58,312 nucleotides of DNA, taken from positions 1 to 58,312 of the forward strand of contig CALWBZ010000053.1 of assembly GCA_944376225.1 (NCBI GenBank), read 5' to 3'. Shown here one piece after another: positions 22,794 to 24,652 of the stretch (positions within the stretch are counted from its first letter, which is position 1; every line of letters begins with the position of its first letter). The stretch is from an uncultured Clostridia bacterium. Its GTDB lineage: Bacteria; Bacillota; Clostridia; Lachnospirales; Bianqueaceae. The position numbers and the translations under genes were made by a program. Below the pieces are notes generated by a model. The model searched no databases. It had not been told where the DNA came from and saw only the letters and a program-made list of their open reading frames with translations.

Positions 22794-24452
22794 CTAAATG
22801 TCCAGATCCTTCACGATCTGGCCGATCACGCCCTTATCCAGCGGATTCGGCAGTTCCGCTATCGCGAGGGCTTCCACAAAATCCTTGCCTCCGGCCTGGC
22901 ACAGCCGCAGATACTGTTTCCACGCGCTTTTGTAATCCCGATCCATTCTTACCTTAAAAGCCAATGCCGCGCTCTGGGCGAGACAGTAATCGATATAATA
23001 GAAGGGCGCTTGGAAAATATGGCCCTGCCGCTGCCAATAGCCTCCGCTCTCCAAAAACGCGTCTCCCTCGTAGTCCAGATGAGGTTTATACTCTTTTTCC
23101 AGCATGCTCCATACCGCCTTACGCTCCTTGGGGGACATGTCCGGATTCCCATAGACGATATGCTGAAACTCATCCACCATGCACCCGTAAGGAATGAAGA
23201 AAATGGCCTCTGTCAAGTGCATCCTGCGATAGTCCGCCGCCCGTTCTCCATAGAAGAGCTCCATCCAAGGTTCGGTAAAGAATTCCATGGACATGGAGTG
23301 GATCTCCGCCGTCTCCATGGTTAAATCCCGTTCCTCCGGCGTGCCCTTTCTTTGCAGATAGCCCTGGAAAGCATGACCGCACTCATGGGTCAATACGTCC
23401 GTATCCCCGCTGGTTCCGTTGAAATTGGCGAAGATAAAGGGAGACTGGTAGGCCGGCAAGAAAGTCATATAACCTCCCGCCTTTTTATCCTTATGCCCCA
23501 GAACATCGAACAACTCATTCTCCGTCATGAAACGGATGAATTCGGCCGTTTCCGGCGACAACTCCTCATACATTCGGATGCCGCTTTGAAGGATCTCCTG
23601 GGGGGTACCCATGGGTTTCGGATCCCCCTGTGCAAAGTGAACCGCCTCGTCACAAAAGTGCAGACGAGAAACGCCCAGATCCTTACGTCTTTCCTCATGC
23701 AGGCGCTCCGCCAGGGGCACGATATGCTCTTTCACCTGTCTGCGAAATTCTTCCACTTGTTTCTGCCCGTAACAGCTTCGATTCATCCGCAGATATCCCA
23801 ATGGGATATAATTGTCGAATCCCAGACGCTTCGCCTGTTCCGTGCGGTTCTTCACCATCTGATCGTAGACTTCGTCCAGTTCCTCCCCTATGGACGACAG
23901 AAACTCGGACATCTTCGCGCAGGCTCTGCGGCGAACCTCCCGATCCGGATCCGTCATATACTTGCGCAGTAAGGACAGATTCAGCGTCTCACCGTCCCAG
24001 TCGATCCTCGCGCCGGCAATCAGCTTATCATACCGCAGGATCAGCCCGTTCTCCTGCTGCACCAGATCCACGATCTTCTCGTCGTATGCCTTTTGGAACA
24101 TGTCCATATTCGCCATGGCCATGCGTCCTAGCTTCTCCTGAAAGAGCTCCCGATATGGAGAAGCCGTCACCAGCGACGCGAGCTTCTGCCGCTCGTTATC
24201 CAGCAGCGGACGGATCTCGTTATAATATTTCTGTTCCGCGTCGTAAAAAGGATCTTCCATATGGATATCATTGCGAATCTCCGCCAGCGTCATCTGGGTA
24301 TTCCACAGATCCATATCCTCCGCAGCCGCCCGATAGGCCCGGTACTGACCCTCTCCGTCCCGCGCCTGCCGGAAGGAATCGAAGTGTTCCTTCATCTTCG
24401 CCTCGATCTCTTCCCAGGTGATTCTTTTGTATGGCATTGCACTGAATTTCAT
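22794..24452 (-). CDS. pepF: M3 family oligoendopeptidase
   Basis: Zinc metallopeptidase of 552 residues, M3B family, which cleaves short peptides in the cytoplasm. The active site reads HECGHAFQ, followed by TAEIHSMSMEF which supplies the third zinc ligand Glu. ATG at 24452 was chosen because GGAGGG lies 6 nt upstream. An in-frame ATG at 24527 would add 25 residues encoded by one copy of a duplicated 44-bp leader repeat and has a poorly spaced GGAGG, so it is probably not used. It heads a five-gene operon. Its leader has an unusual repeat structure. Confidence 0.94.
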   Translation of the reverse strand: MKFSAMPYKRITWEEIEAKMKEHFDSFRQARDGEGQYRAYRAAAEDMDLWNTQMTLAEIRNDIHMEDPFYDAEQKYYNEIRPLLDNERQKLASLVTASPYRELFQEKLGRMAMANMDMFQKAYDEKIVDLVQQENGLILRYDKLIAGARIDWDGETLNLSLLRKYMTDPDREVRRRACAKMSEFLSSIGEELDEVYDQMVKNRTEQAKRLGFDNYIPLGYLRMNRSCYGQKQVEEFRRQVKEHIVPLAERLHEERRKDLGVSRLHFCDEAVHFAQGDPKPMGTPQEILQSGIRMYEELSPETAEFIRFMTENELFDVLGHKDKKAGGYMTFLPAYQSPFIFANFNGTSGDTDVLTHECGHAFQGYLQRKGTPEERDLTMETAEIHSMSMEFFTEPWMELFYGERAADYRRMHLTEAIFFIPYGCMVDEFQHIVYGNPDMSPKERKAVWSMLEKEYKPHLDYEGDAFLESGGYWQRQGHIFQAPFYYIDYCLAQSAALAFKVRMDRDYKSAWKQYLRLCQAGGKDFVEALAIAELPNPLDKGVIGQIVKDLDI

Positions 24453-24474
24453 AGGCATCCCTCCTGTCGATAAT

Positions 24475-24518
24475 AAGCGCAGCTCGGTTTCTTCCCCATA
24501 AGAATATTGCCTTGCTGC
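24475..24518 (+). repeat. 44-bp perfect direct repeat, copy 1
   Basis: Identical over 44 bp to 24576-24619. It begins AAGCGCAGCTCGG and ends CCTTGCTGC. This copy ends just before the ribosome site of pepF and lacks one arm of the inverted repeat that copy 2 has. Confidence 0.97.
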
Positions 24519-24575
24519 ATATATCATGAACCTCCAATACCCTAGGGAGTTTGACGCCCTTTGGCGGCAAACTCG

Positions 24576-24619
24576 AAGCGCAGCTCGGTTTCTTCCCCAT
24601 AAGAATATTGCCTTGCTGC
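24576..24619 (+). repeat. 44-bp perfect direct repeat, copy 2
   Basis: Second identical copy, offset by 101 bp. With four more bases it is bounded by AAGCGCAG and CTGCGCTT, so its transcript can fold into one closed hairpin. Confidence 0.97.
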
Positions 24620-24623
24620 GCTT

Positions 24624-24652
24624 ATTGTACCATATTTATCCTGTGGATTCAA
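24624..24652 (-). promoter_or_regulatory. promoter of the pepF operon
   Basis: TTGAAT (24647-24652), 17-bp spacer, TACAAT (24624-24629) on the minus strand. Predicted transcript start near 24617 gives a leader of about 165 nt. The stretch 24653-24770 holds nothing recognisable. Confidence 0.7.

Follow-up and report, generated by a model that had tools for sequence, protein, structure and literature searches.

A lineage-private palindromic repeat family lies between the -10 box and the ribosome site at about 50 promoters and probably forms a two-copy array upstream of pepF

The block upstream of pepF at positions 24472-24626 of the window (the whole stretch of 58,312 nt that was analysed) probably consists of two arrayed copies from a family of small interspersed palindromic repeats, REP/BOX-like in character and private to the GTDB family UBA1390. 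Within that broad class of repeats the family is new and lineage-private, and it is unusual for the class in its one-orientation placement at promoters and in a stem sequence that differs in step between species. In genus UBA1390, the unit was located at about 50 ordinary promoters, downstream of the -10 box and ahead of the ribosome site. Repeats of this kind are usually regarded as intergenic debris; here one family is part of dozens of promoters and is kept at the same genes across species, yet both arms of its stem differ in step between species. The family thus offers a direct test of an old question: whether copying and template switching, or a binding partner that they have in common, keep the dispersed repeats of bacteria similar to one another. 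It also cautions that strongly covarying repeated leaders need not be riboswitches.

The block itself had been described in the original prediction, and all of its elements were recovered: two 44-bp direct repeats (24475-24518 and 24576-24619, 100% identical, 101 bp spacing), two 12-bp inverted repeats (24472-24483 and 24615-24626) that match at 100%, and a 28-nt hairpin. An inner 29-mer occurred twice in the window and was absent from 100 dinucleotide shuffles. On the minus strand, which carries pepF, the order is the -35 box TTGAAT (24647-24652, outside the repeat and identical at pepF of the sister species, L056), 17 nt, the -10 box TACAAT, stem-loop B, hairpin A, a linker, a second stem-loop B without hairpin A, the ribosome site AGGAGGG (24459-24465), and the ATG at 24452. 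The block therefore makes up the pepF leader that separates the promoter from the ribosome site, and the -10 box (24629-24624, extended form ATGGTACAATA) overlaps its end, both as predicted. This -10 box opens repeat unit 1 and is conserved in first copies genome-wide. The downstream gene (22797-24452) encodes a pepF-like M3 family oligoendopeptidase (NCBIfam TIGR02289, 545 bits).

Two covarying helices make up the first copy. Stem-loop B (24577-24622) consists of the 5' arm AGCGCAGC (24622-24615) and the 3' arm GCTGCGCT (24584-24577) with a 30-nt loop between them, and hairpin A (24547-24574) reads GAGTTTGCCGCC-AAAG-GGCGTCAAACTC over 28 nt. The linker between the copies (24527-24546), where GGAGG precedes an ATG at 24527, runs into the decayed -10 of copy 2, and the resulting period is about 104 nt at most loci. 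Stem-loop B of copy 2 (24476-24518), with a decayed -10 and without hairpin A, has the arms GCAGC (24518-24514) and GCTGC. The right 12-bp palindrome arm (24615-24626) comprises the -10 end and the 5' arm of copy 1, and the left one (24472-24483) the 3' arm of copy 2 and a TTATT extension, which is the reverse complement of the -10 end. The outer palindrome is thus simply the 5' arm of copy 1 plus the 3' arm of copy 2, and the natural unit is the ~104-nt repeat of -10, stem B, hairpin A and linker rather than the palindrome-bounded block. The pepF array contains one full unit and one truncated unit.

The block clearly has copies elsewhere, so the refuting outcome named in the original prediction, a lack of such copies, did not occur. 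A first whole-genome search already gave tens of further copies, and a covariance model located about 57 good copies in the 2.5-Mb genome of the window (G000), about 50 in the sister, about 50 in G003 and about 10 in G007; a second model, built across genera, added 37 copies for G017 and small numbers for G018, G008 and G004. The sister is Clostridiales bacterium UBA1390, assigned by GTDB to the genus and family UBA1390 in the order Lachnospirales (PMC8035907). Among 196 sampled genomes of the order, the nine carriers all belonged to the window's own family (9 of its 19 genomes, in diverged form), and no copy was found in the remaining 177. Neither model found a copy in G002, a 66% complete genome of the same genus. 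A known RNA family was rejected, as Rfam gave no match. A plasmid or phage origin was likewise rejected, since the plasmid search gave no match and the viral contigs no exact match to the hairpin pattern; a single viral contig matched the -10/stem pattern, which looks like chance because no hairpin A follows it. In named genomes, the exact pattern was found on UBA1390 contigs and once in an uncultured Oscillibacter, where the match resembles a gene terminator.

Placement within the genus UBA1390 (two genomes) is strongly directional. The copies lie in sense orientation between the -10 and the ribosome site of genes; for 73 of 84 arrays, a gene in sense orientation starts no more than 350 nt away, the usual distance being about 50 nt, and for about 2 of 84 the only gene start is antisense. 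In first copies, a hexamer resembling a -35 box precedes the in-unit -10 by 17 nt, with a match of at least 4/6 at spacings of 16-18 in 60% of first copies versus 12% in shuffled sequence. Second copies have no -35 and often a decayed -10, with the hairpins kept. Because the -35 is restricted to first copies and the second -10 is often decayed, the first -10 is taken as the working promoter. Judged by the usual distance, transcription would probably start inside the 5' arm of the first stem B, at a pyrimidine/purine position in both species, so that each such mRNA would have a common stem-loop and hairpin leader. RNA from the first -10 is unlikely to contain the full outer stem; downstream copies would be transcribed whole and would add complete hairpins to the mRNA leader. 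The genes led by units encode peptidases, glycosidases, rhamnulokinase, dTMP kinase, TilS, TadA, AddB, LepA, GlnS, PyrE, dihydroorotase, alanine racemase, lactate dehydrogenase, dCTP deaminase and an ArsR-type regulator, and no pathway theme or common function was found among them.

Units occurred singly, in pairs and once as a triple, with a spacing of mostly 102-106 nt. Loop identity was 91% between tandem partners and 65% between different loci, which indicates that pairs arise locally, and locus-specific -10 variants were shared by both tandem partners. The near-identity of partners suggests that units multiplied by local tandem duplication.

Stem B has 8 bp and a loop of about 30 nt that varies in length among copies, and the 11-bp hairpin A contains one internal mismatch and a loop of 4 nt. 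Across 51 copies, 98.3% of cells pair and both-sided changes were found in 10 of 19 pairs (shuffled mean 3.4); across genera, the values were 97.1% and 12 of 15 pairs (shuffled mean 6.4). G-U pairs account for about 1% in the unit helices, which is unusual for an RNA helix. Such a low share would be fitting for either hairpin template switching or symmetric DNA recognition. Hairpin template switching makes perfect hairpins, with one arm copied into the other (PMC8794818). The perfect complementarity of the arms is probably kept in part by such switching. At two loci, the pepF block and L047, the 3' arm continues into the reverse complement of the -10, a trace that switching of this sort would leave behind; the extension in copy 2 of the pepF array resembles a template-switch product.

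Several known systems share features with the unit. Correia/NEMIS and ERIC elements are short hairpin repeats that can supply promoters and alter mRNA processing. Their promoter and RNase effects are summarised in PMC3049150. The unit described here differs from them in that it has no long terminal inverted repeats, an almost fixed orientation and a -35 that is the host's own. BOX elements of Streptococcus pneumoniae, which affect co-transcribed genes and are thought to be non-autonomous and slow to transpose, are likewise small interspersed repeats with variable tandem inner modules and predicted RNA stem-loops (PMC3049150), and arrays of 1-3 units, mostly at the spacing given above, with predicted stem-loop helices were found here as well. 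However, sequence and host are different, the unit starts with a -10 box and lies in sense within promoters, and no end modules of the boxA/boxC type were seen in the G000 copies. REP and BIME sequences with their RAYT genes are comparable in being extragenic palindromes of tens of copies (PMC2817692, PMC3733652), in the presence of a single-copy Y1-type gene in the genome and in the intercistronic placement seen in genus g5; the unit likewise is a short palindrome with tens of extragenic copies. Unlike in REP, none of the listed copies has a GTAG or CGTC tag at the foot of B or of A; unlike in BIMEs, the units are head-to-tail direct rather than alternating; and unlike RAYTs, the Y1-like gene lacks HUH here and is not flanked by units. 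Riboswitches and leaders in Rfam can also present a covarying two-helix leader ahead of ribosome sites, but the unit has no Rfam match, no common pathway and almost no G-U, and it is inverted or intercistronic in other genera; neither a known family, nor a consistent pathway, nor two exclusive folds (assessed by computation only) was found.

The gene context in other genera is more varied. In g5 and g3, units were found at within-operon stop codons, beside tRNA 5' ends or inverted at promoters. For many units in G017 and G018, the stop codon of the preceding gene marks where the unit starts or falls within its loop, and the next gene follows; other G017 units are inverted at promoters. At L091, L098, L132, L284, L285, L286, L288 and L291 (G017/G018), this stop codon sits where stem B starts or inside the loop of that stem, the unit being tucked onto the 3' end of the upstream coding sequence. 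Single units adjoin tRNA 5' ends in G004, G015 and G008; those at L092, L294 and L295 (G008, G004 and G015) are antisense. This genus-dependent placement favours a repeat family over one fixed regulatory RNA. The unit would be non-coding, hairpin-forming and without a gene of its own; it would have dispersed across the genome in the past and would now be passed on mostly at fixed positions. Its effect on host genes is likely modest and generic, acting through leader structure, mRNA stability or translation, and not through metabolite sensing.

Comparison with the sister tested 23 downstream genes, of which 18 had a unit and 5 did not, a count drawn from a portion of the sister genome and possibly too high, as many regions were chosen for carrying units. 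Here stem B reads GGCGCAGC and in the sister GGCGTGGC, a difference that extends to both arms and to nearly all orthologous loci. Loop similarity was 0.64 for orthologous and 0.62 for non-orthologous copies, so the loops carry no signal of ancestry. At alignable absent sites, the -10 and the ribosome site correspond and the unit is missing, confirming that relatives have promoters without it; the pepF orthologue of genus g4 (66-67% identical) has a promoter and a short leader without a unit. Some absent or decayed sites look like losses, and loss of a unit would leave the promoter intact, as the present/absent pairs illustrate.

Near-uniform sense orientation, retention at 18/23 genes and a stem that differs genome-wide suggest a functional role greater than would be required of a passive repeat, and a common trans-acting recogniser of the stem is possible. 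These same three observations would be explained by a regulon, an alternative that we consider unlikely but worth weighing, in which one trans-acting protein or RNA recognises the arms of stem B (and hairpin A) and controls about 50 housekeeping and metabolic genes together, its specificity having shifted between the two species and all sites having followed. Such recognition would also agree with the scarcity of G-U intermediates, as in symmetric DNA half-sites, and with the overlap of arm 1 and the expected start site, a normal operator position. The lack of a common function downstream argues against it, as do the variable loop length and the many different stems of the intercistronic copies in G017. 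G003 also speaks against it, with three stem classes on one loop and hairpin type; its arrays mix these classes, and wherever both are present, AAGCGCAGC (or AAACGCAGC) stands ahead of AAAGGCGGC (or ATAGGCGGC). Copying or conversion between repeats can moreover give concerted change.

A possible partner of the units is a protein with a PF01797 (Y1 transposase) domain, which is encoded once per genome in 16 of 19 family genomes and, at 27.8 bits (cut-off 23), in that of the window. It is a 254-aa protein (L199:13304-14065 and L146:11541-12305) whose HUH motif reads SAN in the window's species and the sister (G000/G001), with HxH kept in g2, g3 and part of g5; it looks domesticated. The protein is conserved in the family, and its C-terminal part weakly resembles a helix-turn-helix in the sister. 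No units flank the gene apart from that of the nearby pyrE promoter. The lack of an identified mobiliser counts against the repeat-family reading, as does the absence of any visible target duplication. Between this gene and pyrE, an ORF (L199:14405-15253) shows segments like sigma-70 region 4 and the ParB HTH at weak Pfam scores. It is conceivable, at rather low probability, that the hairpin unit serves as an all-purpose addition to promoters which a trans factor reads, possibly this HUH-less Y1-like protein upstream of pyrE, and that factor and about 50 sites diverged together genome-wide.

The original prediction had offered a small MITE-like element as its second reading. A small, many-copy repeated element was borne out, but terminal inverted repeats with target-site duplications at empty and filled sites were not found: five filled/empty pairs compared by eye showed no duplication beyond the unit's own -10. 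A still-active MITE-like element inserting next to -10 boxes is accordingly improbable, even though it would accommodate the high copy number, the species-specific consensus and the unit-free promoters of relatives. Intact HUH correlated with copies when genus g1 was left out (6/9 vs 0/5, p=0.03), but the correlation was gone with g1 included (p=0.31), and HUH intactness was dropped as a predictor of copy number. The lack of HUH in the window's species and the absent sites that look like losses also speak against ongoing insertion. A reverse transcriptase as mobiliser was rejected, the gene being absent from the window's genome and the sister.

The RNA switch first proposed, specific to pepF and with two exclusive folds, has two identical 3' arms in its favour here but is highly improbable, given the purely local predicted pairing, the single copy in the sister's pepF leader (L056), the same module at about 50 other genes and a 5' arm mostly upstream of the expected start site. 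In folding with RNA starts at 24622, 24619 and 24617, the arms were predicted to pair locally and almost exclusively so (7.7 local versus 0.02 exchanged expected pairs for 24622), and exchange appeared only with a start at 24626, inside the -10 itself. The expected start, about 7 nt past the -10, lies inside the first arm, so that most of that arm would be outside the RNA; the single unit in the sister means that the competing second arm is not conserved. An invertible promoter between the 12-bp repeats looks unlikely, as the -35 is outside the repeats and virtually all arrays are in sense. The suggested 25-codon extension of pepF does have an in-frame ATG at 24527, but it is absent in the sister, and a functional N-terminal extension was rejected as not conserved; orthologues start at the ATG at 24452, which has its own AGGAGG.

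Several copies lie within a few hundred bases of the G000 contig ends C99, C106, C6 and C26, where assembly may break or collapse arrays. In G003 leaders (L116-L126, L133-L135), extra small hairpins, AAGAATCCC..GGGATT and TTCAGC..GCTGAAC, are often beside the unit and form mosaic arrays with it before genes.
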